From the NCBI GenBank assembly GCA_029941785.1, contig JAPYTK010000011.1, forward strand, positions 378 to 56,032: a DNA stretch of 55,655 nt, in the 5' to 3' direction. This document shows positions 533 through 51,758 of this stretch, in pieces. Made by a program: the position numbers and the translations under genes. Source of the stretch: Polyangiaceae bacterium. GTDB taxonomy: Bacteria > Myxococcota_A > Polyangia > Polyangiales > Polyangiaceae. Position 1 is the stretch's first letter, and every line of letters begins with the position of its first letter. The notes under the pieces are model-generated. The model was given only the letters and a program-made list of their open reading frames with translations, was not told the origin of the DNA and searched no databases.

Positions 533-547
533 GAAGTCCCTGAAAAC

Positions 548-1093
548 ATGGCGCGACGGCCTGAGTTTTTTTCCGGGAACACGCTGTATCCCATCATCGC
601 GATCCTCGTCGCGCTCAGCGCGCTATTCGGCTTGGTCGTGTTGCCCCGACTGTCGCCGCCAGGTGGCGACATGTTGCGCCAGCCCGCCCCGGATTTCTCG
701 CTGCCGATCGCCGCGAATGGCGATGAGGGCGCACGGCTCAAGCTCTCCGAGCAACAGGGGAAAATCGTGGTGCTCGACTTTTGGGCAACCTGGTGTGGCC
801 CCTGCGCTGTGCAAGCCCCCATCTTGGACCGCATCGCGCGTAAGTTTCCCGACGAAGTGGTGGTGCTGGGAGTCAACGTCGGCGAACGTCCGTCACGGGC
901 AAGCGCGTACGCCAAGCGCAAAGGGCTCAGTTATCCCATCCTGAGTGATCCCCGAGGTCAAGTGCAGGCGCTGTACGGCGCCACTTCGCTTCCAACGGTA
1001 GTTCTCATCGACCAAAAAGGCGTGATGACCGCCTTTGTCCGTGGGCTGGTAAGCCAAAACAAGCTCGAACGGGCCATCCGGGGCCACTTGTAA
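548..1093 (+). CDS. TlpA/ResA-like membrane-anchored thioredoxin
   Basis: This is a thiol-disulfide oxidoreductase of the TlpA/ResA type, 181 residues long. It has an N-terminal membrane anchor (about residues 14-33), an AhpC/TSA-like fold entry (APDFSLP) and the active site WCGPC at 82-86. The conserved cis-proline lies in TSLPT (Pro149). The family acts on the outer face of the inner membrane, typically reducing apocytochrome or other envelope disulfides. The partner here is unknown. No cytochrome c maturation genes are adjacent, although heme-motif proteins are encoded elsewhere in the window. The ATG at 548 precedes the anchor directly. Confidence 0.9.
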   Translation: MARRPEFFSGNTLYPIIAILVALSALFGLVVLPRLSPPGGDMLRQPAPDFSLPIAANGDEGARLKLSEQQGKIVVLDFWATWCGPCAVQAPILDRIARKFPDEVVVLGVNVGERPSRASAYAKRKGLSYPILSDPRGQVQALYGATSLPTVVLIDQKGVMTAFVRGLVSQNKLERAIRGHL

Positions 1094-4591: not shown

Positions 4592-5196
4592 ACCTCCTCC
4601 TCCACCGCCGTAGCGGTCTCTGCGTCCGCGACGCCCTCCGCCTCGCCCTCCTCAGCAGCCCCGTCCTTGTCCGGCAAGGAGATCGAGAATAGCTCGATCG
4701 GATTCGGTCGAATCGTTGGGATGCCGTGATAGTCGTCGGCCTCTTCGTAGTCTTTGCGCATGGGGTGACCTTCCCAGTCCTCGGGCAACAACAGCCGCCT
4801 GAGATCGGGATGCCCGTCAAAGAGCACGCCGAGCAGGTCGAAGCACTCGCGCTCCTGCCAGTTGGCCGCGGACCACACGTCCGTCAACGTTGGGATGACC
4901 GGGTCTTCGCGATCGAGAAAAGCCTTGAGGACGATGCGGTGCTTCTTTGCGTAGGAGTAGACGTGATAGACGACCTGGATTTGGTCGTCGTCGGGAAAAT
5001 CAGTCCCCGTCACGCACTCGAGGTAGTCGCAATGGAGGGCGGGATCACTCTTCAGCAAGGTGCCCACGTCTTCGATACGAAAAGGCTCCACCTGACACCA
5101 CGGGTCCTTGTCACCCTCGCTGCCATCGTTGAAGTTGAACACGACCTCGTCGCCGAATTCGCCTTGAAGCTTGTTGAAGATATCCGCTGGAGTCAT
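4588..5196 (-). CDS. nuoC: NADH-quinone oxidoreductase subunit C
   Basis: NuoC (30-kDa subunit) belongs to the peripheral arm of complex I and packs against NuoD. The core motifs are visible: the [14 protein letters not shown] segment, [14 protein letters not shown], and [18 protein letters not shown]. The ATG at 5196 is preferred because AGAGAG lies just upstream. A GTG at 5235 would add 13 residues. The last about 30 residues form an acidic Ala/Glu/Asp-rich tail (AEEGEAEG...VEEEV) absent from most NuoC proteins and probably disordered. It couples to nuoD through ATGA. The 106-bp gap to nuoB is unusually long for this operon and holds a 15-bp tandem duplication. Confidence 0.96.
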
Positions 5197-5235
5197 CCGC
5201 TCTCTCTCTGCAGTTTCAGAAGGTGCGACCTTCAC

Positions 5236-5265
5236 GCTCGTATCAATGCCGCTCGTATCAATGCC
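5236..5265. repeat. Perfect 15-bp tandem duplication in nuoB-nuoC gap
   Basis: The unit GCTCGTATCAATGCC occurs twice in direct succession (5236-5250 and 5251-5265). It lies between the nuoB stop and the preferred nuoC start. I see no protein-coding role, because it is upstream of the likely ATG and of the alternative GTG. It may be a recent slippage duplication or part of an intergenic control element. Confidence 0.9.
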
Positions 5266-39687: not shown

Positions 39688-41553
39688 TCAATTCAGGCGA
39701 AACATGACCATGCCAGGCTGATTGCTCTTGACCTTGATCGTGCGCGAGCGGGTCGCCTGGCCGGTCCGTGCGCAACTCACGGTGTGGACGCCCACCGGTA
39801 CCTTGAGACGAATGCTGCTGGTGGTGCCTTGGCCTTGACCATCGACGGTAAACGAACAGCTTCCTCCGACCGCGATGGCGACCAATGTCCCCGACCCATC
39901 TCCTCTGCCTCCACCAGTACCCGTGGAGGCAGAGGAGGAGGACGAGGACGACGAGGAGGACGACGAGGAGGCAGAGGAGGAGGAGGAGGAGGACGACGTG
40001 GAGGAGGACGTGGATGACGTGGCGCCGCTGGTCCGCGGAGTAGGGTATCTCAGTGGCCCCTTGACCAGCCGTGGGCCCGCGCCGCCCGCGTCGGCGTCAC
40101 TCGGAGCTCCTCCGGCGCCATCCGCCGCAGAGGCGGATGGCGACGCCGATGCAATCGTCACAGCTCGCCGGCCACCACTGTCGTCGTCGTCAGTGGTCCC
40201 TTCAACCGTCGGCGCCGTACGCAACGAGAAGTAAAGCACCACGGCGAGAACCGGGATAAGGAACACCGCAACTCCGATGGCGACGGTGGCAAACTTTCGC
40301 TGGGTTGCTCGCTTACGCTGCCCCAAGGCGTCTTGGGCGGGAAAACTGCCTGTGGAACTGGGACGCCCAGCAGCTGACGTCGACTCATCTGCGCCAGGCG
40401 ATGATGAGGCTGGGGGGGCTACGGAACTGGAGTCGGACCCGGACTTGCGCTTCGGCGGCGGCGGCGTACGGCTGCCCTTCGCACCGGATGTTGCCGGCGG
40501 CACCGTGTAAAATTGAGTCCGCTCCATGTCGGAGACCTGCTCCTCAGGCGCGGCCGCTCCCCCCGCTTCGCCGACATCATCGGTAAATGACTCGAGACCC
40601 GCGCTGCGAGCAAGGGGCGACGTCGCAGAAATATTGGGCGCATTCGTTGGCGCGGCCTCGTCCCCGGTACTCGACAACCGCCCGATTCGCTCGATCAAGA
40701 GCTGGCCCTCTGCAGAGGCGTAGGGCCCTAGGGCATGGGCGAGAGCGTAGACGCTTCCGAATCGGCTAGCCGGATCTTTTGCGAGCGCCCAATCAATGAT
40801 TTGGTCCAGCTGCTTGGGCACGTCGGCTCTCAAGCGACTGATCGGTACGTGCGCCTCGCGGGTGATCTTGATCATCAACTCGGCCATGTCGCCACTGAAT
40901 GGCGGAGTCGCGGCAAGCAGTTCATACAGGACACAACCCAACGACCACACGTCGGTGCGGTGATCGATGTCGCTGGTCTTGCGCACGAGCTCTGGGGAAG
41001 CATAAGGCGAGATCCCGAAAATCGCGGTCATCTCACTTTGCCCACCTACCGATGGACCGCTGTCCTTGAGAACTTTCGCGGTGCCAAAGTCGGTGATTTT
41101 CACGAGCGCGGATCCACCGCGCCGCTTGGTCAGGAACAGATCGGAAGGCGATAGCTCCCGAACGATGATGTGGTGACTGTGCGCTTCCTGGATCGCCTCG
41201 CACGCTTGGAGGACGTACAAAATGGCCTCGTCCAAGCGCAGGGCGCCTCGCTGCTGGATGTACGAGCCCAGGTCATCGCCATCCAGATATTGGCGCACGA
41301 GAAAAAACGATCCGTCGGAATGGGTGCCGACGTCGATGATGCGCGCGGCGTGCTCCGACTCGAGCTTGGACAAGGTCCGCGCTTCTCGGCGAAAGCGTTC
41401 GACCTCCTTGCGGTCGCACATTCCCGGTGCCAGCAGGCGGATGACAACATGCTGATCGAACTCCGTATGCCGGCCCTCAAGGAGAAAACCGCGCTTTTGC
41501 GCAAGTACCCGCACGACACGGTACTTCCCAGCAACGACGTCTCCGGGCTTCAT
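39688..41553 (-). CDS. Receptor-type protein kinase homologue, predicted pseudokinase
   Basis: The 621-residue protein (ATG at 41553; a TTG at 41589 adds 12 residues) has an N-terminal kinase fold (1-265), a low-complexity linker, one membrane helix (about 415-437), a long Ser-rich linker and a C-terminal PEGA-like beta domain (VPVGVHTVSC). Key catalytic residues are changed: the glycine-rich loop is absent (LAQKRGFLLEG), the VAIK lysine is Arg39, HRDLKPSN reads VRELSPSD (Glu133, Ser135, Asp138 in place of Asp, Lys, Asn). DFG (155-157) and the SPE motif are kept. I predict a pseudokinase acting as a signalling scaffold rather than an active Ser/Thr kinase. Confidence 0.88.
   Translation of the reverse strand: MKPGDVVAGKYRVVRVLAQKRGFLLEGRHTEFDQHVVIRLLAPGMCDRKEVERFRREARTLSKLESEHAARIIDVGTHSDGSFFLVRQYLDGDDLGSYIQQRGALRLDEAILYVLQACEAIQEAHSHHIIVRELSPSDLFLTKRRGGSALVKITDFGTAKVLKDSGPSVGGQSEMTAIFGISPYASPELVRKTSDIDHRTDVWSLGCVLYELLAATPPFSGDMAELMIKITREAHVPISRLRADVPKQLDQIIDWALAKDPASRFGSVYALAHALGPYASAEGQLLIERIGRLSSTGDEAAPTNAPNISATSPLARSAGLESFTDDVGEAGGAAAPEEQVSDMERTQFYTVPPATSGAKGSRTPPPPKRKSGSDSSSVAPPASSSPGADESTSAAGRPSSTGSFPAQDALGQRKRATQRKFATVAIGVAVFLIPVLAVVLYFSLRTAPTVEGTTDDDDSGGRRAVTIASASPSASAADGAGGAPSDADAGGAGPRLVKGPLRYPTPRTSGATSSTSSSTSSSSSSSSASSSSSSSSSSSSSASTGTGGGRGDGSGTLVAIAVGGSCSFTVDGQGQGTTSSIRLKVPVGVHTVSCARTGQATRSRTIKVKSNQPGMVMFRLN
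39925..40020 (-). repeat. Serine-codon-rich tract in the pseudokinase
   Basis: About 30 consecutive codons are almost all Ser with a few Thr and Ala, from a GAG/GAC-rich stretch on the plus strand. Such tracts are low-complexity linkers that cross the envelope, and they vary by slippage. Confidence 0.9.
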
Positions 41554-41665
41554 GCTTTTCGTTTTGCCTGCCGTACCATCCGGAATCAAGGACGTTTCTC
41601 GTTGAGCATGGCATATGCTCGCGAGTTTGGGCCCGTTCGTGCCGTTTCGTAGGTAGTTTTTCGCG

Positions 41666-42181
41666 TTACGGAAGGCGCGCTAGCGCAGCTTCGCACGCCT
41701 GACGCACGCTGTTCACGTGATCACCGCGAAGCCAGCCTACCACACAGAGATCCGCATCGTCGAAAGGGTTGAAGACCTTGCCGCCCTTGTGCCCTTCCTT
41801 GCCACGGCCCTTGAGGACCAAAAGCAGTTGATTGACCGCTTGTCCGGCCGGATCGCTGGCCACGTCTTGCGTCTTTTCTGGCTGGACACTGCAAACGGCC
41901 AGATAATTCGCGAAACGCTCGAAGACGGTCGTTGCGTTGCCTCCAGAGCGGTTTAGTTCGCTCGAGTGGCGCAAGCCCAACTCTCCGTAGAGCCTCATCG
42001 GGCGATAGTCGCTGCCATGACAATCGAGCGTCCCGCAGCGTCGTTCCATGAGTTCGGACACGTGATCCATGAACACGGCTCGATCTGGACACTCGATGGT
42101 TATGCGATCATCCAAATCCTTGGCTTTGCAGGCGGTCAACGACATGACCACCAGTCCCAGCAACACGATGCGCGGCATCAT
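41666..42181 (-). CDS. Small c-type cytochrome-like lipoprotein (CX4CH)
   Basis: The 171-residue product is a lipoprotein (lipobox LTAC, Cys18) with one heme-binding-type motif CGTLDCH, that is CX4CH at 49-55. The sequence around it, HVSELMERRCGTLDCHG...MRLYGELGLR, resembles cytochrome-like domains of exported myxobacterial and planctomycete proteins. No clear axial Met was identified. It is the last gene of a four-gene run joined by 4-nt overlaps. In CX4CH motifs heme is bound in some cytochromes (for example cytochromes c3), so a functional heme is plausible, not proven. Confidence 0.75.
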   Translation of the reverse strand: MMPRIVLLGLVVMSLTACKAKDLDDRITIECPDRAVFMDHVSELMERRCGTLDCHGSDYRPMRLYGELGLRHSSELNRSGGNATTVFERFANYLAVCSVQPEKTQDVASDPAGQAVNQLLLVLKGRGKEGHKGGKVFNPFDDADLCVVGWLRGDHVNSVRQACEAALARLP

Positions 42182-43038
42182 GGCGTACCTCCTGTTCCCC
42201 CGGTCGCAGCCTGGCCACCGCCAGTCGCTCCCGCACCGCCACTTCCGCCCGTGCCCGGTGCTCCGCCCGTAGCTGCTGCCCCGCCCGTGCCCGGTGCTCC
42301 GCCCGTAGCTGCTGCCCCGCCGGCATCCGCTCCACCGGTGCCGGACGCCGCCGCGCCACCCGTGCCGGGGGAACCAACCTGGATCTTCCCGCAGCGCTCT
42401 TCGGGCGGGATATTATCCGGATCCACCAAAACCGCGCCCGCAGAGTCACGAGACTGGCCCGTGCTTGCATCGACCGTCGGGTCGTTGGCCACGCGCGACG
42501 GTGTGGCGAGAGTATGGCAACCTGCGCACGATCGTTCCCGACCGATGAGCGAGCGCATGAATCGATTGCCCACTCGAATCGTCAAAGGAAATGCCGCGTC
42601 GGGCCAGTCGCTCGTCTCGAGGTAGAAATTGCCGGCCGAATTCGTACACGCTTTCTGCGAAGCACCGTTCGAGTCGTAGATCGTCACGAAAACCCCTTCG
42701 ACCGGAGCAAGCTGCAGCGTGTTCAGGTCCTGGGCGTAGATCGTGCCGCCAATGGCCATCTCTGGTTCGGCAGCCTCGTAGGTACTGTGGCATAAGACGC
42801 AGGGCTGGCCTGCGCGATGCTCGGCACTGGGACCTGCCGCATCCTCCGGAGGGAGTTTGTCGATCTGATCTTGAATAACGGGGTCCATACGACAGCTCGA
42901 CCACAGAGCGGCCGCCGCGAACAGGACCAGCAAGCTGCGCCACACCGGCCATCGGCGCAATAGGTCAAGCCGACGGCGCGCCGTCCGACGAGGCGTGGGC
43001 CCAGTGGCCGCGGTAATGTTCTTCACCTTGCGCATCAT
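42178..43038 (-). CDS. Diheme-motif lipoprotein with Gly/Ala repeat tail
   Basis: The 286-residue lipoprotein has a basic N terminus, a signal helix ending at Cys49 (ALWSSC), then two classic heme motifs CVLCH (80-84) and CAGCH (171-175). Between them lies a beta-sandwich-like segment (APVEGVFVTIYDSNGASQKACTNSAGNFYLET) resembling a carboxypeptidase-regulatory-like domain. The last 65 residues are low complexity (TGGAPGTGGAAATGG). Overlaps of 4 nt with both neighbours make a coupled operon. I infer an electron-transfer lipoprotein; the heme content is untested. Confidence 0.78.
   Translation of the reverse strand: MMRKVKNITAATGPTPRRTARRRLDLLRRWPVWRSLLVLFAAAALWSSCRMDPVIQDQIDKLPPEDAAGPSAEHRAGQPCVLCHSTYEAAEPEMAIGGTIYAQDLNTLQLAPVEGVFVTIYDSNGASQKACTNSAGNFYLETSDWPDAAFPLTIRVGNRFMRSLIGRERSCAGCHTLATPSRVANDPTVDASTGQSRDSAGAVLVDPDNIPPEERCGKIQVGSPGTGGAAASGTGGADAGGAAATGGAPGTGGAAATGGAPGTGGSGGAGATGGGQAATGGTGGTP
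42245..42316 (-). repeat. Perfect 36-bp tandem repeat (two copies)
   Basis: Two identical 36-bp units (42245-42280 and 42281-42316) encode 12-residue repeats of the Gly/Ala tail of the diheme-motif lipoprotein. Perfect identity implies recent duplication. Confidence 0.95.
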
Positions 43039-45155
43039 TCGATCTCCATCTCGACTGCCGTCGCCGTGAACAATCCCATGCGATCGAAAAGGTACAAGTG
43101 ATCCTGAAAGCGGGTGTAAATGCCCTCGGCGTACACCGAAGCGCTGAAGACCTCGCTAAGTCGCATCCGTAGGCTCGTCCCGCCGCTCACGGCCCACAGA
43201 GGTCCGAGTTCACGGTCGGTCGTGCGGTACTTGGGAAGGTCGTATGTGCCAAGCGTGTTGCGCGGCGCAGCGTAGGCGCGCCGCCAAAAATCAACCGGCC
43301 CCTGCAAATGAAAGCGAGCGTGGGGCCCGAGCGTGAAGGTATCGTTGATCGTCCACAAGAACCTCAGGTCGGTCGTGCTGGCCCGCTGCCCCCAGCTATC
43401 CATGTAGAGCCGCTCGCTCAGGCGCAAGGTCGCGCCGAGATCGAAGCGATGAATACCCCGAAGCAGAGCACCGTAACGTAGACGCTTGAGGGGCAGTTGC
43501 TCCAAAGGCATCGATTCGAGCCGCGCAGCGTGTATGAGTTCGGGCGCAGCACCCAGCGGAATCTCCGACGTCTGGATGACGTCCGGATCGAACACCGGCA
43601 CATGCCGATAGGGCTTGGAGGAATCGCCATCTTCGTATTGGAAGGTCCCAACGAGCGCGGCCAAGGTCGAAGCCGAAAACACGATCGAGCTGCCCGCATT
43701 GACGGAATGACGCGTGATATTCCGGCTAAAAACATCGAACGACGTTTTTGCACGACCGATCGTGTCGAAACCAAAGCCGTAGCTCACGATCGGGGACACC
43801 ATCTTGTCAAACAGGTCCGCCCGGATACTGCCGCCTAGCCCTCGACCGATGTAATCGGGCTCGGCAGACACCGAGCCACTCACGCCCGCGGTGACCAACC
43901 CCATCTTGTAGCCGCCGCCAAATTTACCGCCCGCGCGAACCTCGTCCCAACGACGCGAAGCGGTGGCAACGATGTCTGCAGACGCCGTCGTGACGACGTC
44001 CACGATCGCGGTCGCGCCGACATTCCAGCCCTGGGTGGGCTGCACCGCCGCCACGTAGACGGAGGGTGAAAGCACGTCGACATTGTCGTTGTCATTGTAG
44101 CTGGCAACCTCGATACCCGCCTTGAAGTTGAGCCCCTTCTCGAGGATGCCAAACTTCGCTTTGCAGGCGCGCTCTTCACGGGCCGTTCGGGCCCCCGTCA
44201 TGCACTGCTGAAACGGCGATGACAGCTTGAACTTGGTCAGGTCGAACCGCAGCGTCTCGTGCCGCTGAAACCGCACATCCTTCGCGAAGTTGAACTTGGT
44301 CCCGCCGCGGACACCCAAGACTTGGATGTTGGCCAAGCCCGGGTTGTGAGGAATGGGATTGTCGACCTCTTCAGCCGAAATCTCCTTGCCGTCGACTTTC
44401 ACGACCGCGTCGCGAATGCCGACCTTCTTGATGTTGAGCACCAGAATCTTCGGCGTGGCGGTGACCACGTCTTCCAGATAATCAGAAATCTCCTGCACGA
44501 GCTTCGAATTACCGTCACGCTTGGCGAGATCCCTCGCAGCCGCGGCGTCCCGGTGCGCCTCGAGCAACAGCCCGCCCTTGTCCTGACAGCGGGCCAACAT
44601 CAACTTGCCCTCGGCGTACTCGCCCATCACCGTGGCGCCGATCATCGTCGCCATGCACGCTTGCCAGTCGCCAGACCCGAGTTGGCGTCGCGCCTGGTCG
44701 ACGGAAGCCATCTGGTTGGCGCTTGGACCTTTCGGCGCGGCGACCGTCGGCACCGGCGGCGTTGCACCATTTCCAGCCTTCACTTTCACGGAAGCGGCTG
44801 CAAAGGCAGCCCGCACGCGACGCGTCACGAAACGCTGATCGGGCTTCCCCGTGGCATCTTTCGCCAGAGCCCACTCGAAACGCTTCTGGGCTTGCTTCGC
44901 CTTGCGCCTCAACGCGAACAAGGTGCCCTGCGCAAGGAAAATCTTGGCCTCCAATTCGTCGTCGCAGCCCTTGCTCAGGCATAGCTCTTCGGCGGACTTG
45001 AGCTTCGCGGATGCCGCATTGTACTTTCGATAAGGCACCTGCCCCATCGCAGCCTTGTGGAGGGCCTTCGCCTCGGCGTCACCCGAAGCGTGCGCCGTCG
45101 ATGATCCCAGCGTCATCCACGAGCAAACGGCGGCAGTAACGATAGCGTACTTCAA
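43035..45155 (-). CDS. DUF3570 outer-membrane barrel with TPR/PEGA-like head
   Basis: The protein (706 aa from a TTG at 45155) begins with a signal peptide ending near STAHASG. An alpha-helical TPR-like segment follows (about 30-225), then a PEGA-like strand segment (ILVLNIKKVGIRDAVVKVDGKEI). The C-terminal 380 residues match the DUF3570 barrel style: FKAGIEVASYNDNDNVDVLSPSVYVA, DVVTTASADIVATASRRWDEVRAG, DSWGQRASTTDLR, and RTTDRELGPL. TTG overlaps the upstream stop (TTGA) with a GGAGC nearby. DUF3570 has no established function; I recall such genes near redox proteins, and infer a pore or conduit. Confidence 0.82.
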   Translation of the reverse strand: MKYAIVTAAVCSWMTLGSSTAHASGDAEAKALHKAAMGQVPYRKYNAASAKLKSAEELCLSKGCDDELEAKIFLAQGTLFALRRKAKQAQKRFEWALAKDATGKPDQRFVTRRVRAAFAAASVKVKAGNGATPPVPTVAAPKGPSANQMASVDQARRQLGSGDWQACMATMIGATVMGEYAEGKLMLARCQDKGGLLLEAHRDAAAARDLAKRDGNSKLVQEISDYLEDVVTATPKILVLNIKKVGIRDAVVKVDGKEISAEEVDNPIPHNPGLANIQVLGVRGGTKFNFAKDVRFQRHETLRFDLTKFKLSSPFQQCMTGARTAREERACKAKFGILEKGLNFKAGIEVASYNDNDNVDVLSPSVYVAAVQPTQGWNVGATAIVDVVTTASADIVATASRRWDEVRAGGKFGGGYKMGLVTAGVSGSVSAEPDYIGRGLGGSIRADLFDKMVSPIVSYGFGFDTIGRAKTSFDVFSRNITRHSVNAGSSIVFSASTLAALVGTFQYEDGDSSKPYRHVPVFDPDVIQTSEIPLGAAPELIHAARLESMPLEQLPLKRLRYGALLRGIHRFDLGATLRLSERLYMDSWGQRASTTDLRFLWTINDTFTLGPHARFHLQGPVDFWRRAYAAPRNTLGTYDLPKYRTTDRELGPLWAVSGGTSLRMRLSEVFSASVYAEGIYTRFQDHLYLFDRMGLFTATAVEMEIE

Positions 45156-45775
45156 TTGTTCGGTGCTCCGCAGCGGATCCACTCCGCAATGGTATCGAGT
45201 TGCTCTTGAGACAACGGCTCGCCGGGGCTCTTCCCTTGAAGCTTCGGCATCGGCGACCCACACGGGCCGCTCAAGGTTAGCTCTTCGCTGACAAAGTCGT
45301 TATCCACTCCATCCGCGAACGCCAAGTTGCACATGATGCGAGATTGACCCGGCTCACAATCAACAATGTAGGGCCCGCTGCCAGCGATCTTGTAGTTGGT
45401 GAGTTGAGTGTACGCGGTGTCGGATTGCCCGGGTGGCATGAATAAACCGGCAGCGCCCATCTCGTGGCAACCGGCGGCGCCGCATGCGCCGGTCGGTTCC
45501 GCGGCCTCGGTGGGCGCATCGAGAATCCCCTCGAAGATGTCTTTCGACCAGCTCACGCCGCAGTTCGGATCCACGGTGCAGATTGGGCCCGCGCCACTCG
45601 AACTCGACGAGGCGGCAGACGAACTCGTGCCGCCGGCTACCCGTGCCGGATCTCCGAACAGAACGTCCTCTTCGGTTGCGCACCCGAACTGAAAAATACA
45701 CGCAGCTACAAACGTCGTACCCACGGCAGCACGGAACCAGTTGCTCGAACCAGTCGACTTGTCTTTCATTCGCAT
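45152..45775 (-). CDS. Cytochrome c-like lipoprotein (CX4CH), operon leader
   Basis: The 207-residue lipoprotein has a signal peptide ending at Cys32 (FQFGC), a short Ser/Ala linker, and CGAAGCH (98-104, CX4CH). Its C-terminal residues PLSQEQLDTIAEWIRCGAPNN are typical of the end of c-type cytochrome domains in exported proteins. A possible axial Met is in CGSPMPK. It is the first gene of the four-gene run; its stop overlaps the DUF3570 start. It starts at the ATG at 45775, or 45769. Confidence 0.78.
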   Translation of the reverse strand: MRMKDKSTGSSNWFRAAVGTTFVAACIFQFGCATEEDVLFGDPARVAGGTSSSAASSSSSGAGPICTVDPNCGVSWSKDIFEGILDAPTEAAEPTGACGAAGCHEMGAAGLFMPPGQSDTAYTQLTNYKIAGSGPYIVDCEPGQSRIMCNLAFADGVDNDFVSEELTLSGPCGSPMPKLQGKSPGEPLSQEQLDTIAEWIRCGAPNN

Positions 45776-46077
45776 CCCCGTCCCGATCATTCAACCTGAG
45801 AGGTTAGCCCGTATCGCTCCGTGCCGCGACCGTAAAAACACCACACTCGACGAATTGAAAGAACCGGGTGTGCTCATGGGTCACGGGCCGTTGAGTTGGC
45901 GCGCCGGTGACGACGGGTACGCGGCCTAACTAAGGGCAGAGCCGCGGTCGTTCGACATGGTCCGACGCGCGCGAGATGCGCCCGTTCGTATCGAACTCGC
46001 TCACCTACGTGATACCGGTTTTCGGCGCTCCGAGGAGCCAGAAGCCATGGGGTGCTGGGTAGGAAACAGACCGCTGC
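45776..46077. other. Intergenic gap upstream of the cytochrome cluster
   Basis: I see no gene here. The gap must hold the promoter of the cytochrome-like cluster, but I could not find a convincing -35/-10 pair on the minus strand. Confidence 0.5.
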
Positions 46078-47100
46078 TCAGAAGATCCAAGTGGCGGCCA
46101 TGCCCCCACCCTTCGTCCCAGCAAACGGCGTCAGCGTGGGAACCGCAGCGCTGTCTTCCTCGGCCCCGTCGTCGCTAAACAACAATACGGTTCCTGTAAT
46201 ACCGAAAGTGAGGGCCACGCCGAATGACATATCCGCGATCAAGGCAGAACGTTCAGCCTTGTCCGCATTGTCAACCGTCGGATCGGCGTCAAAATCGCTC
46301 TTCGCTCCGAGGGCCTGTACCCCGAAAACACTTCCGAGCACGGCTCCTGCACCCGCCACACCCAAGGTGACGTAGGCAGGCACCTTGGAACGGCCGTCTG
46401 CTTCGTCCACGATAGCCTCATCGGATAGGGGTTCAGGGACGGGCGCCACCGGAGCGGTCGCTGGCGGCGCAGCGGGAGCCGTCGGTTTGAGCGTGGCAGC
46501 CACGGGATGCGTCCCTCCGGCCGTCACCTCCACCTCGTGTGAGCTGCTCGCGTAGCCGTCTGCCGACACCACCACTTTGTGCGCGCCTGGGGCGAGCTCA
46601 AGCGTACAGGAATTGGGGCAAGCGTTGTTCTTCTCGGCCTTGCCATCCACGGTGATCGTGGCCTTGGCCTCCCCAGGCGTCACGGTCACGTTGACCACAC
46701 CTGGGAGGGTTGCCTTCAGCTCGCCTATGCGCTTCGTGGCCGCATCGATACGTGTCTGGTGCTTCTTCGCACTGGGCTTGGAGTCCAAAAACACCTGATA
46801 CGCTGCGATGGCTTCCGCCGGCTTGTTTGCGAGGTCGAGAGACTGGCCGATCATGAACTTCGGCTTGGCCCCGGGAAGCAAGCCCTCCGCCTTGCGATAG
46901 GACTCGAGGGCTCCGGCGTAGTCTTTCGCGTCGAAGAGCTTCTTTGCAGCCTTGAATGCAGCGACCGCTTGCTTCAACTTGGACTTGCCGAAGGCCGGCT
47001 TCGCCTGCGCTTGGGCATCGGTCGGCGTCGCCATGACGACGGCGCCAGAAAGTGCGGCCAATGTTCCCAGGATTAATACTCGATTGCGCATCGCTTTCAT
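46078..47100 (-). CDS. TPR/PEGA-domain exported protein
   Basis: The 340-residue protein (start near 47100; ATGs at 47103, 47091 are alternatives) has a signal peptide (LGTLAALSGAVVMATPTDAQAQA). A TPR-like helical segment (LKQAVAAFKAAKKLFDAKDYAGALESYRKAEGLLPGAKPKFMIGQSLDLANKPAEAIAAYQVFL) follows, then a PEGA domain (TVTPGEAKATITVDGK...LAPGAHKVVVSADGYA). A proline-rich linker and two C-terminal hydrophobic helices (about 245-265 and 288-306) follow. Such TPR-PEGA proteins are common in myxobacteria. Its gene precedes the cytochrome-like cluster on the opposite side of a 302-bp gap. An inverted repeat lies just upstream. Confidence 0.82.
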   Translation of the reverse strand: MKAMRNRVLILGTLAALSGAVVMATPTDAQAQAKPAFGKSKLKQAVAAFKAAKKLFDAKDYAGALESYRKAEGLLPGAKPKFMIGQSLDLANKPAEAIAAYQVFLDSKPSAKKHQTRIDAATKRIGELKATLPGVVNVTVTPGEAKATITVDGKAEKNNACPNSCTLELAPGAHKVVVSADGYASSSHEVEVTAGGTHPVAATLKPTAPAAPPATAPVAPVPEPLSDEAIVDEADGRSKVPAYVTLGVAGAGAVLGSVFGVQALGAKSDFDADPTVDNADKAERSALIADMSFGVALTFGITGTVLLFSDDGAEEDSAAVPTLTPFAGTKGGGMAATWIF

Positions 47101-47110
47101 CATCTCCATC

Positions 47111-47128
47111 TCGTGTGCTTGCACACGA
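47111..47128. promoter_or_regulatory. Perfect 8-bp inverted repeat upstream of the TPR/PEGA gene
   Basis: TCGTGTGC and GCACACGA flank a TT centre, 10 bases upstream of the chosen start. It could be a repressor operator or an RNA hairpin that masks translation. The divergent gap also serves the BamA/TamA-like gene. Confidence 0.5.
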
Positions 47129-47287
47129 TCACTGAATAGCCCGGTCAGCATCCCGGGTACAAGCCTCCTGAGAGGTTTTTTCGAGACGTGCCTGCGCATC
47201 TTCACCCCTCGCGGCACCGGAAACATGCCTCTTTCCGCCGGAGTCATGAACGATTTGACCCGAGCCAGGCTATGCTGAGCCAAGGCC

Positions 47288-48781
47288 ATGAGGAACCGCA
47301 CCATCGACTCGATTGTAGCCCTCGGTCTCGGCCTGTGCACAAACTCGATATGCGTGCTTGACGCGCGGGCAGCCGACTTGCCGGCTACCGAGGTTGCCCC
47401 TCAAGCAGCTCTTCGTTACGAAATCGAGGGGATCGAGTTCCGCGGCAACACCCGTACGGCCGATTCGGTCATTCGACGCTTCGTGCCCTTCAAGAGCGGC
47501 GATGTGCTCGCGGTCGACGACCCCGAAATCGAGATCACCCGCTACCGCCTACTGACAGCGGGCTTCTTTTCGAAGGTCCGTGTTTCGCTCCGCCGCGGGC
47601 GGGAGCGCGGAAAGGCCATCCTCTCGATCGAGGTGGTGGAGCGGAACACGCTCATCATCGACCACATCTCCATGGGCATCGCGGCCGATGAAGACAAAGA
47701 TGGGCAGGCAGAACTGCTGTCGCCCTATTTCGGTTTGGGCGTGGCAGAAGCCAACCTCGCCGGACGAGGCATGCGACTGAACGCCGGCGTGGCGGTCGCG
47801 GCGGACCAGTGGGCGATGACCACCGGGTTCGCAGACCCGGCCATTTTCAAGAGCAAATGGTCCTTCGACACCTCCCTCTACTACGTGGACGGACGCGACT
47901 TCTTCGGAACGAAAGACGTCTCCTTTGAGAGCCCGCTTCTGTCCCAAAAAACGGTCACCGATTACGCCATCGTCGACTACACGCGATTCGGCGGCTCAAT
48001 TGGCGGAGGACGCGATCTGACGCTCCTCACCCACTTGAGCTTTGGGTATCGGCTCGAGGCGGTCGACGCGGTTGTGCCAGTCGTCGCCTCCCACGTACGA
48101 GGAACCACCCGCGAGCCTATTCGCTTTCACATCCTGGGCGGCAAGAGCGTCCACTCATCACTCCACGCGGCGATCCGCTACGACAGTCGCAATCGACCCT
48201 TTTTGCCCACCGCAGGAACGGTCGCCGCCCTACGAGGCAGCGTCGGGCTGACCCCCCTCGGAAGCAATTACGGTTACCAGAAGTTCGAAGCACAGTACCA
48301 GCGATGGTGGACGTTGCCGTGGGCCCACGTCATCAGCCTCCAATCGCAGATCGGTGTGGTCCACGGCGATGCTCCGTTCTTCGAGCGGTTTTACGTGGGC
48401 GACTTCGCCGAGGCACTCCCTGGACGAATCTTGGGAATCAACCCTGACCGCCGGCAGCCTCCCAACCTCTTCAATACAGCCATCGAAGAGGTCCGCTACG
48501 GCGACTACGCGGCCCGGCTCGTCAGCGAGTATCGGGTCGAACTGTACGAAGGGCGTAGCTCGATCTACGGGATCGACTTGTTTGGCCGTGTCGGGCTCTA
48601 CAGCGTCATGTCGCACCGCGACCTGACAGACGCCGCCACGGGGTATGAGGGGGCCGCGCGCATCCCAATCGACTTGACTTACAACCTGGGACTACGCGTC
48701 GAAACCGAAGTCGGCGGTTTCTCGCTTGGCTTCTCCAATCTCCTCGGTTTGCTGCCAGCCCGGGGCGGGGATCGCAAGTGA
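47288..48781 (+). CDS. Single-POTRA BamA/TamA-like outer-membrane protein
   Basis: The 497-residue protein has an N-terminal export signal, a single POTRA domain (about 43-118: YEIEGIEFRGNTRTADSVIRRFVPFKSGDVL...RYRLLTAGFFSKVRVSLR), then a beta-barrel of the Omp85/BamA type (about 135-497) ending in alternating hydrophobic strands with C-terminal FSNLLGL. Canonical BamA has five POTRA domains, TamA three. A one-POTRA form suggests a specialised insertase or patatin-like or lipoprotein exporter. It overlaps the next gene by 4 nt (GTGA). The barrel closes within the length expected of the family. Confidence 0.82.
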   Translation: MRNRTIDSIVALGLGLCTNSICVLDARAADLPATEVAPQAALRYEIEGIEFRGNTRTADSVIRRFVPFKSGDVLAVDDPEIEITRYRLLTAGFFSKVRVSLRRGRERGKAILSIEVVERNTLIIDHISMGIAADEDKDGQAELLSPYFGLGVAEANLAGRGMRLNAGVAVAADQWAMTTGFADPAIFKSKWSFDTSLYYVDGRDFFGTKDVSFESPLLSQKTVTDYAIVDYTRFGGSIGGGRDLTLLTHLSFGYRLEAVDAVVPVVASHVRGTTREPIRFHILGGKSVHSSLHAAIRYDSRNRPFLPTAGTVAALRGSVGLTPLGSNYGYQKFEAQYQRWWTLPWAHVISLQSQIGVVHGDAPFFERFYVGDFAEALPGRILGINPDRRQPPNLFNTAIEEVRYGDYAARLVSEYRVELYEGRSSIYGIDLFGRVGLYSVMSHRDLTDAATGYEGAARIPIDLTYNLGLRVETEVGGFSLGFSNLLGLLPARGGDRK

Positions 48782-49488: not shown

Positions 49489-50796
49489 TCAGGAGTCCCT
49501 GGCCGCCTCCTCGTCGTCGCTACCGGCCGCCTCCTCGTCGTCGGCCTCGGCTCGGCCGACCCCATCATCCTCATCGTCCTCAGGTTCCGCTCGTGGGGGG
49601 TCGGAACCGGCGTCAGTCTCCGGGTCGGAGTTCGGCGCAGCCTCGGACTTGCGCTTCGAATTCGACTCGGGCGACTCCTCGACCAAATCGGACGGAAGGT
49701 CCAACGACATGGCGGTCTCGGGGTGTGCAAGCGCAGCTCGGTCGAACACGAAATAGGCACCGCACGCCGCCACTCCACTCGCCAAGCCGATAAACTGTGA
49801 GGTGGAGAGCGCCATCAGCGCCGGGCCGGCGAAGTTCTCCGGACGAAGGGCGATCACCAGCGCCAAGGCAGGAAGGAACGCGAGGGCCTGACTGATCCGC
49901 CGCGCCCGCTCGGAGTCGATGAGACGGGACACACTGATTGCGTACCCACCGGCGAACAGAGCGAGGCACAGGGGCAGCAAGATGTGCTCCGGCAGACTCG
50001 GCGGCACGGTGCCGCGCTCGGGGTCATCGCGCACCATCTCGAGAAGAAACCGGCCGACGCCATAGGCAAAGGTGAACAACAGAAAAATCTGGCCGCGAAA
50101 CGACTGACGGCGTCGCGCCCATAGGAGCAATACGAGCAACGACAAGCCAAGTAAGGACTCGTAGATCTGCGTCGGATGAACCGGCAAGGAGCTGGTCGTC
50201 GAGGCGTCGATGAGGCCCAGTTCTTGGTGGCGAACCCACGCCGGCGACCCCGAACTGCCGGGGAGAGTCGCCTCATCCCATCGGGGAAAGGTCCCGAGAG
50301 ACTTCAGCCAGGCAGGAGCTTCGGCGGTGAGCGTGCCTCCGTAATCGCACCCGAAGAGGTAACAACCAATGCGGGTGATCATCAGTCCGGACGCCAAGCT
50401 CGGGACCGCCACATCAGCCCAAGGCAACAGTCGAATGCGCTTCAAACGGAGGTAACTCCACGAACCGAGGAAACCACCAAGGAAGCCACCGTAGGCCACG
50501 AGACCACCACTGCGCATCGACAAGATATCCCCGAGGGAACCAAATTCTTCGAGATTGGTCACCACGTACAGCAGACGCGCAGCCACGACCGCGCACACAG
50601 CCGTGATGACGTAATTGTTCGCCATCGTCTCGCGGGGCAGGCCGTCGCGTTCGGCGAGCGCGAGCGTCAGGTACCAACCCACGACGAAGGACAAGCCGAG
50701 CATGACTCCGTAGCTGTAGATCGGGAGAGAACTCATCTGCCCGACAACCGGGAAATTCCAGCTCGGAAGGGGAATGCGAAACAGGATGGGATGCAC
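49489..50796 (-). CDS. lgt: Prolipoprotein diacylglyceryl transferase, enlarged
   Basis: Lgt transfers diacylglycerol from phosphatidylglycerol to the lipobox Cys of preprolipoproteins, at the inner membrane. Key motifs are present: RSGGLVAYGGFLGG, ITRIGCYLFGCDYG, VHPTQIYE and GRFLLEMVRDD. The start is a GTG at 50796 giving HPILFRIPL, as usual for Lgt; the frame is open upstream without a better start. At 435 residues it is longer than typical Lgt (about 260-300) because of two extra helices and a C-terminal acidic tail (DDEDDGVGRAEADDEEAAGSDDEE). The extension is probably cytoplasmic. Its presence among many lipoprotein genes is fitting. Confidence 0.93.
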   Translation of the reverse strand: MHPILFRIPLPSWNFPVVGQMSSLPIYSYGVMLGLSFVVGWYLTLALAERDGLPRETMANNYVITAVCAVVAARLLYVVTNLEEFGSLGDILSMRSGGLVAYGGFLGGFLGSWSYLRLKRIRLLPWADVAVPSLASGLMITRIGCYLFGCDYGGTLTAEAPAWLKSLGTFPRWDEATLPGSSGSPAWVRHQELGLIDASTTSSLPVHPTQIYESLLGLSLLVLLLWARRRQSFRGQIFLLFTFAYGVGRFLLEMVRDDPERGTVPPSLPEHILLPLCLALFAGGYAISVSRLIDSERARRISQALAFLPALALVIALRPENFAGPALMALSTSQFIGLASGVAACGAYFVFDRAALAHPETAMSLDLPSDLVEESPESNSKRKSEAAPNSDPETDAGSDPPRAEPEDDEDDGVGRAEADDEEAAGSDDEEAARDS

Positions 50797-50906
50797 GCCC
50801 CACTCATACGCGAACCACGCCCGCTCTGCTATGATGACGAAGACGTCTGTCTTACTCTTGGGTACCCGAGTCGTACGAGCGACGCCGTCCCAGACCGTCC
50901 GGCACC

Positions 50907-51758
50907 ATGGAAAAAAACGAGATCCAGGATTTGGTCGACAGCCTAAACCCGCGGTTGGAGCGACTGAGGGCATTGTACGAGCAGTACTTCATGGGGATCG
51001 AGAGGATTCCACCCGCCACCCTTCGCAAGGACATCGACCGCGCATTTTGGCGCCTAAGGCGGGAACGATTCAACAACACCGCGCTGCGGTTCCGGTTTCA
51101 GCAAATATTGCAGCGCTACAACGTCTACAAGCAGCACTGGATGCGTATCATGCGCGAAATCGAGCGCGGAACCTATCGCCGAACGGTCGCGCGGGCAGCC
51201 CGTCGATTCGACAAGGAAACGCTCCGCGGCGTAGCCGGCAAAGCAGGCGTCTCAGCGGCCGAGCGACATGCGGCATCCGTTGCAGAAGACGAGGCTCCTA
51301 CCCCCCCCCGCGGCATGGCGACCAGCGAGATCGACCAGCTCGCGCAGGCGGCCACCACTGCGCTGCTCGGTCAACCCGGACCGGCGCCAGCCGCCGCAGC
51401 ACCGCCGACCGCAGCACCGCCGACCGCAGCACCGCCGACCGCAGCACCGCCGACCGCAGCACCGCCGACCGCAGCAGGACCTCGCTTGCGCCCGCCGACG
51501 CCAGCCGGAGCCGGTCGCACCGAAAATCCAACCCCGGCCCGTGGCGACGAGACCCGAGCCTTATACGACAAGCTCATCGCAGCCCGTCGCGCTCAGGGCG
51601 ACCCGAACGCCAATCTCAGCTACGACAAGCTTCGCCGCAGCCTCGACAAACAGCGGCAGCAACTGCAAAGAAAGCATGGCAGTGACAAGCGTATTGCTTT
51701 TGAGGTCATCGATCGTGGCGGAAAAGCCATGATCCGCCCGGTCGTCAAGAACGAGTAA
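50907..51758 (+). CDS. MXAN_5187-like protein with APPTA repeat linker
   Basis: The 283-residue protein is cytoplasmic, without signal peptide. The N-terminal 120 residues are helical and basic (LERLRALYEQYFMGIERIPPATLRKDIDRAFWRLRRERFNNTALRFRFQQILQRYN...IMREIERGTYRR). The C-terminal about 70 residues (LYDKLIAARRAQGDPNANLSYDKLRRSLDKQRQQL...IAFEVIDRGGKAMIRPVVK) match a myxobacterial domain I know from MXAN_5187. A Pro/Ala linker of five identical five-residue units APPTA (repeats at 51396-51470) joins them. The function is unknown; its role in gliding or sporulation is speculative. Confidence 0.8.
   Translation: MEKNEIQDLVDSLNPRLERLRALYEQYFMGIERIPPATLRKDIDRAFWRLRRERFNNTALRFRFQQILQRYNVYKQHWMRIMREIERGTYRRTVARAARRFDKETLRGVAGKAGVSAAERHAASVAEDEAPTPPRGMATSEIDQLAQAATTALLGQPGPAPAAAAPPTAAPPTAAPPTAAPPTAAPPTAAGPRLRPPTPAGAGRTENPTPARGDETRALYDKLIAARRAQGDPNANLSYDKLRRSLDKQRQQLQRKHGSDKRIAFEVIDRGGKAMIRPVVKNE
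51396..51470 (+). repeat. Five perfect 15-bp tandem repeats
   Basis: Unit GCAGCACCGCCGACC repeats five times in frame, encoding five-residue APPTA units. Perfect identity suggests recent slippage; copy number may differ among strains. Confidence 0.95.

Follow-up and report, generated by a model that had tools for sequence, protein, structure and literature searches.

What does a bacterium gain from an outer-membrane barrel whose gene is coupled to those of three small lipoproteins with heme-type motifs? The question is raised by four minus-strand genes, A, B, C and D, that follow one another in a stretch of 55,655 nucleotides from a Polyangiaceae bacterium (contig JAPYTK010000011.1 of assembly GCA_029941785.1), hereafter called the window. 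We consider it probable that this operon is a cytochrome-equipped branch of the DUF3570 electron-transfer system, a system otherwise recognized by covalently attached flavins.

Neighbouring genes of the operon share overlaps of exactly four nucleotides (TTGA, ATGA and ATGA), as a preliminary description of this DNA had stated. Junctions in orthologues read TTGA, ATGA or GTGA, so the tight coupling of the genes is itself conserved. The TTG start of B, at 45155, sits within the stop of A and opens a clean signal peptide, and an in-frame ATG at 45790, 15 nt upstream of 45775, is a possible alternative start for A. The heme-type motifs reported earlier are likewise all present: CGAAGCH in A, CVLCH and CAGCH in C, and CGTLDCH in D (Table 1). 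When the residues of each protein are shuffled, the motif or motifs reappear in 0.2% (A), 0 of 20,000 (C) and 0.6% (D) of cases. Invariance across relatives is the far stronger evidence, and it rules out a chance origin.

Table 1. Coordinates of the operon, its motifs and neighbouring features, numbered along the window
Feature	Position	Strand	Description or basis
A	45152..45775	-	207 aa lipoprotein, one CX4CH
CX4CH of A (CGAAGCH)	45484-45464	-	family alignment, profile match
B	43035..45155	-	706 aa, DUF3570 outer-membrane barrel (predicted), TTG start, signal peptide
Degenerate flavinylation motifs of B (DVVTTAS, DIVATAS)	43956..44000	-	alignment of 50, then 147 DUF3570 loci
C	42178..43038	-	286 aa lipoprotein, two CXXCH
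First CXXCH of C (CVLCH)	42801-42787	-	sequence motif
Second CXXCH of C (CAGCH)	42528-42514	-	sequence motif
C-terminal tail of C	42178-42390	-	Gly/Ala-rich GTGG repeat, about 70 residues
D	41666..42181	-	171 aa lipoprotein, one CX4CH
CX4CH of D (CGTLDCH)	42037-42017	-	sequence motif
K, Ser/Thr protein kinase	39688..41589	-	PF00069; adjoins D; Ser-rich linker
PEGA/TPR protein	46078-47340		separate gene upstream of the operon
Prolipoprotein diacylglyceryl transferase	49489-50973	-	PF01790, E 1.2e-48
Thioredoxin-like protein	533-1090	+	E 2e-33 to Trx profile

B, C and D form a conserved cassette of the Polyangia that is present in several copies per genome. DUF3570 barrel homologues occur in 47 of 59 related genomes, often more than once, and in nearly every closer genome homologues of C and D lie directly behind the barrel; the window's own genome holds four complete B-C-D cassettes on contigs C11, C4, C74 and C281 (L001, L071, L072 and L073). 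The linkage test began from C alone and was blind to B. In a class-wide search of this kind, D was present at all 17 newly fetched places that scored above 114 bits, and 16 of them had DUF3570 a few kb away at most; of three weaker C relatives, two (L216 and L218) lacked both. Among 80 C-anchored loci in the collection of named genomes, D was found in 77 and a DUF3570 barrel in 77, and of the four loci without one or both, three are close to the end of a contig. By their titles, the C-anchored loci belong to Myxococcota and to delta- or unclassified proteobacteria, with none more distant. Whole A-B-C-D orthologues are carried by Minicystis rosea DSM 24000, Polyangium fumosum DSM 14668, other Polyangium and metagenome-assembled genomes, the closest with 61-63% identity in C. 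The order of all four genes is kept in Minicystis rosea and Polyangium, and that of B-C-D more widely; A is directly joined to the cassette mainly within the window's own subgroup. A literature search, in which a single paper naming DUF3570 was retrieved, found no description of C, of D or of their link to DUF3570.

The 706-residue B, previously read as a DUF3570 barrel, matches PF12094 over residues 402-677 with 67 bits against a curated cut-off of 25, which bears out that reading; it is the sole Pfam match of the protein, and no MtrB/PioB-type barrel was matched. The additional N-terminal head of B, about 340 residues long, had been called TPR/PEGA-like. A search for a PEGA domain in B found none, the PEGA/TPR protein being the product of a separate gene, and TPR matches appear, below threshold, in the heads of B orthologues and not in B itself, so that a tentative TPR likeness is what stands of this description. 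The accompanying remark that no role is established for DUF3570 no longer holds: the family is a substrate of ApbE, which flavinylates the Chlorobium luteolum protein at two [ST]GA[ST] motifs (PMC8238504). DsbD, DUF4266 and a thioredoxin-like protein are frequent members of flavinylated DUF3570 clusters (PMC8238504; eLife 2021). The electron route of the flavin type is thought to lead from DsbD to a periplasmic thioredoxin, with DUF4266 and the ApbE-attached flavins on DUF3570 taking part.

In the Myxococcota, flavin-type loci follow the order (DsbD)-Trx-DUF4266-DUF3570-ApbE and their barrels carry two motifs. The two [ST]GA[ST] motifs by which ApbE-flavinylated DUF3570 is recognized are absent from B, which has DVVTTAS and DIVATAS at these sites. 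Across 147 DUF3570 loci, two motifs were found in 16, and all 16 have ApbE and none has C and D. Conversely, C and D accompany the barrel in 53 loci, none of which has an intact motif or an ApbE gene within 4 kb; the remaining loci are mixed. Within 8 kb, ApbE was met at one of the 80 C-anchored loci, and the window gave no match to it. In a tree of the barrels all 53 group in a single clade (SH-aLRT 96) of 59 members, and the remaining six lie at contig ends. The mutual exclusion of ApbE and C/D hence counts as one evolutionary event and not as 53, and we rejected a treatment of the 53 and 16 loci as independent cases. Barrels of the C/D clade mostly read [ST]AAS and [SA]TAS at the motif sites: although the Gly is gone, nearly all 53 retain the Asp, the Ala and the acceptor Ser/Thr. 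The window's subgroup diverges further: Thr or Asn has replaced the Gly, and the second motif has lost its first Ser/Thr.

Two readings of the cofactor history have to be weighed here. We regard it as possible, with some reservation, that a cofactor swap took place in which one Polyangia clade gave up the covalent flavins of DUF3570 for c-type heme lipoproteins, among them a new diheme architecture in which a transthyretin-like beta-sandwich has a CXXCH heme site at either end. The other reading, a tentative one as well, is that hemes came in addition to a retained flavin, B being flavinylated at DVVTTAS, perhaps also at DIVATAS, by an unlinked ApbE, which would give a relay of flavin and heme. 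Since its Asp, Ala and acceptor Ser are retained, B could indeed still be flavinylated. Furthermore, eight ApbE-linked barrels are without [ST]GA[ST], some ApbE-linked barrels having SAAS or TAAS, so loss of the motif is no proof of loss of the flavin; in a model substrate, Gly-to-Ala cuts flavinylation only to about half (PMC12052999). We accordingly withdrew the argument that a lost Gly proves a lost flavin. An ApbE gene, the only one in the window's genome, is encoded elsewhere (L299, G000:C3). It is broken by a run of undetermined bases at about 5159-5246, and an apparent frameshift was rejected, the interruption being an assembly gap. Against retention of the flavin stand the linkage pattern, in which ApbE adjoins every two-motif barrel sampled and no C/D barrel, and the further divergence of the motifs in the window's subgroup. 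As a separate observation, one C/D locus (L200:5121-5957) contains a protein of DUF2271, another ApbE substrate family, with DAITAAT, the same Gly-to-Ala change as in the barrel; together the two changes may perhaps point to an ApbE with relaxed specificity.

Whichever way the flavin went, our main reading asks whether the lipoproteins are cytochromes. In C, two CXXCH sites flank a transthyretin/CnaB-like beta-sandwich, one on either side (AF2 pLDDT 80.5), and H26, C32, C35, H36, M113, C123, C126 and H127 are invariant in 38 sequences, as are five structural residues (G50, N85, G88, F90 and P103). Two CXXCH together with H26 and M113 are the set that heme ligation predicts. A Gly/Ala-rich tail ends C in the window and in near orthologues and is missing from most other homologues. 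Polyangia also commonly have a wider C-like family (about 60-90 bits) in which a beta-sandwich again lies between two CXXCH; at least part of this family is unlinked to DUF3570, for instance at L216 and L218.

D shows a comparable pattern. Its lipid Cys, C32, C37, H38, R54, E71, H114 and W133 are invariant in 60 sequences, and the CX4CH with the distal H114, which lies in HKGG, is again what heme ligation would predict. The AF2 model is all-helical (pLDDT 92.9), with one helix immediately before the CX4CH and two at the end, an order that suggests class I cytochrome c. The relation of D to a solved cytochrome runs only through A, to which it aligns in a profile-profile comparison with a probability of 92.6% (E 4.5e-7). 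A itself looks like a class-I-like monoheme cytochrome c domain, as predicted from its profile. In an alignment of 28 family members the two Cys, the His and one Trp are invariant, and the Pro of a C-terminal 'MP' is present in at least 90%; the spacing between the Cys varies from 2 to 5 residues, and some relatives have a plain CXXCH. Among solved structures, the cytochrome c domain of hydrazine synthase alpha (5c2v) aligns with the profile at an E of 6.7e-9 over nearly the whole domain of A, the CX4CH falling on its CXXCH; c551/c552 match weakly.

The converse explanation, that A, C and D are not cytochromes and that their Cys serve in disulfides or metal binding within an outer-membrane complex with a structural or transport role, strikes us as unlikely. 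It draws on the rarity of CX4CH as a heme motif and on the window's A, C and D, none of which reaches the cut-off of any Pfam or NCBIfam family, Pfam's cytochrome families included. The AF2 models of C and D contain no heme, and neither has a clear fold match in the PDB: the matches of C to transthyretin/CnaB-like proteins are weak (Z 5-5.7) and the search with D gave no usable match, results that do not establish a new fold for either. Where the barrel has a single SGAS motif (L129-L190), the D relatives next to it have CX5CH to CX13CH instead of CX4CH, and these may be either very unusual heme sites or the mark of a changed function. A disulfide, however, needs neither the His that invariably follows the second Cys nor the invariant distal His or Met; A aligns with a solved heme domain and has relatives with the canonical spacing, and CX4CH does occur in tetraheme cytochrome c3 (PMC10454114).

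Similarly informative is what surrounds the cassette. DUF4266 (PF14086) is kept in most C/D loci, and several, namely L061, L200, L204, L206 and L215, also have linked genes for DsbD (PF02683) and a thioredoxin-like protein, which ties the C/D branch to the same electron supply as the flavin type. No gene for a DUF4266 lipoprotein adjoins the barrel in the window or in 12 orthologous loci, and no DsbD or thioredoxin-like gene lies beside the window's operon. In the window's subgroup DUF4266 has been lost and A stands in its place, overlapping B directly; a paralogue in the same genome (L071) has the order A-DUF4266-B-C-D. Behind D, 11 orthologous A-B-C-D loci have a kinase homologue in the corresponding position, and the kinase may thus regulate, or belong to, the window's subtype, though we treat K as an associated gene and not as a core part of the operon. 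About 4 kb from the operon the window encodes a prolipoprotein diacylglyceryl transferase, the enzyme that lipidates lipoproteins, and a thioredoxin-like protein is encoded at its far end.

Taking up the cytochrome-equipped branch again, C with two hemes, D with one and, in this subgroup, A with one would be lipid-anchored c-type cytochromes produced in step with B. On this reading the lineage probably acquired C and D, the flavinylation motifs of its barrel decayed and the linked ApbE disappeared. Proteins for cytochrome c assembly are encoded in the window's genome. Electrons would be periplasmic in origin, with DsbD and thioredoxin as their source in some relatives, and D, C and A would pass them between the periplasm and the outer-membrane barrel, to it or from it, with iron or a periplasmic enzyme as candidate final partners, for example. 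Covalent flavins are known from DUF3570, and a cytochrome branch with the same barrel would offer a second handle on the function of the system, since hemes can be readily seen and titrated and a single phylum contains the two types. If a swap did occur, it would be a clear natural replacement between flavin and c-type heme in one homologous system, as has been proposed for respiratory systems (PMC8238504). The reading also assigns a testable role to unannotated myxobacterial families that are present in several copies per genome and have cultured carriers in Minicystis rosea and Polyangium fumosum.

The idea of an electron conduit that accompanied the preliminary description holds in so far as a conserved barrel is encoded with lipoproteins bearing invariant residues of the c-heme type; the closeness to MtrCAB or Pcc conduits does not. 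A true conduit across the outer membrane, delivering electrons to acceptors outside the cell in the manner of MtrCAB or Cyc2, appears to us a rather improbable alternative. It would account for a barrel and lipid-anchored cytochromes in a single coupled operon, and one heme at the barrel can suffice, as Cyc2 illustrates (PMC8406198), but the predicted hemes number at most four, sit in small separate lipoproteins, and serve a barrel that has no CXXCH, its seven Cys being scattered. MtrCAB, MtoAB and Pcc share with the operon an outer-membrane barrel encoded with cytochrome-like proteins; no homology was detected to them, their hemes number 10 or more, and here all the cytochrome-like proteins are lipoproteins. 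Although the operon would function in some measure as porin-cytochrome systems do, membership of the MtrCAB/Pcc group was rejected on heme motifs of 1 + 2 + 1 as compared with multiheme proteins of 8 or more, and on the absence of any multiheme cytochrome or MtrB match. The fused cytochrome-porin Cyc2 is alike in combining few hemes with an outer-membrane barrel, and a fusion of this kind was rejected because B contains no CXXCH. Least likely of all is iron or heme acquisition, in which the barrel would import a ligand that the lipoproteins bind or reduce: some flavin-type DUF3570 clusters include an iron transporter and iron assimilation has been proposed for them (PMC8238504), yet no iron transporter or TonB receptor was recognized beside the few C/D cassettes scanned.

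Two more known systems invite comparison. Class I or PSCyt1-like cytochromes c, such as hydrazine synthase alpha and c551/c552, resemble A over nearly its whole domain and D by way of A, from which they differ in having CXXCH for CX4CH; in D the candidate distal ligand is a His, and the likeness lies below Pfam cut-offs. For the operon as a whole, the better parallel is the DsbD-thioredoxin-DUF4266-DUF3570-ApbE system. The barrel is homologous to that of the flavinylated clusters (PMC8238504), and C/D relatives keep DUF4266, the thioredoxin-like protein and DsbD. C/D loci differ from these clusters in that ApbE is unlinked, both motifs are degenerate and C and D, and in places A, have been added, and the window's subtype differs further in missing DUF4266. 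Through B the window's operon belongs to DUF3570, and it represents a variant of the DsbD/DUF4266/DUF3570 kind.
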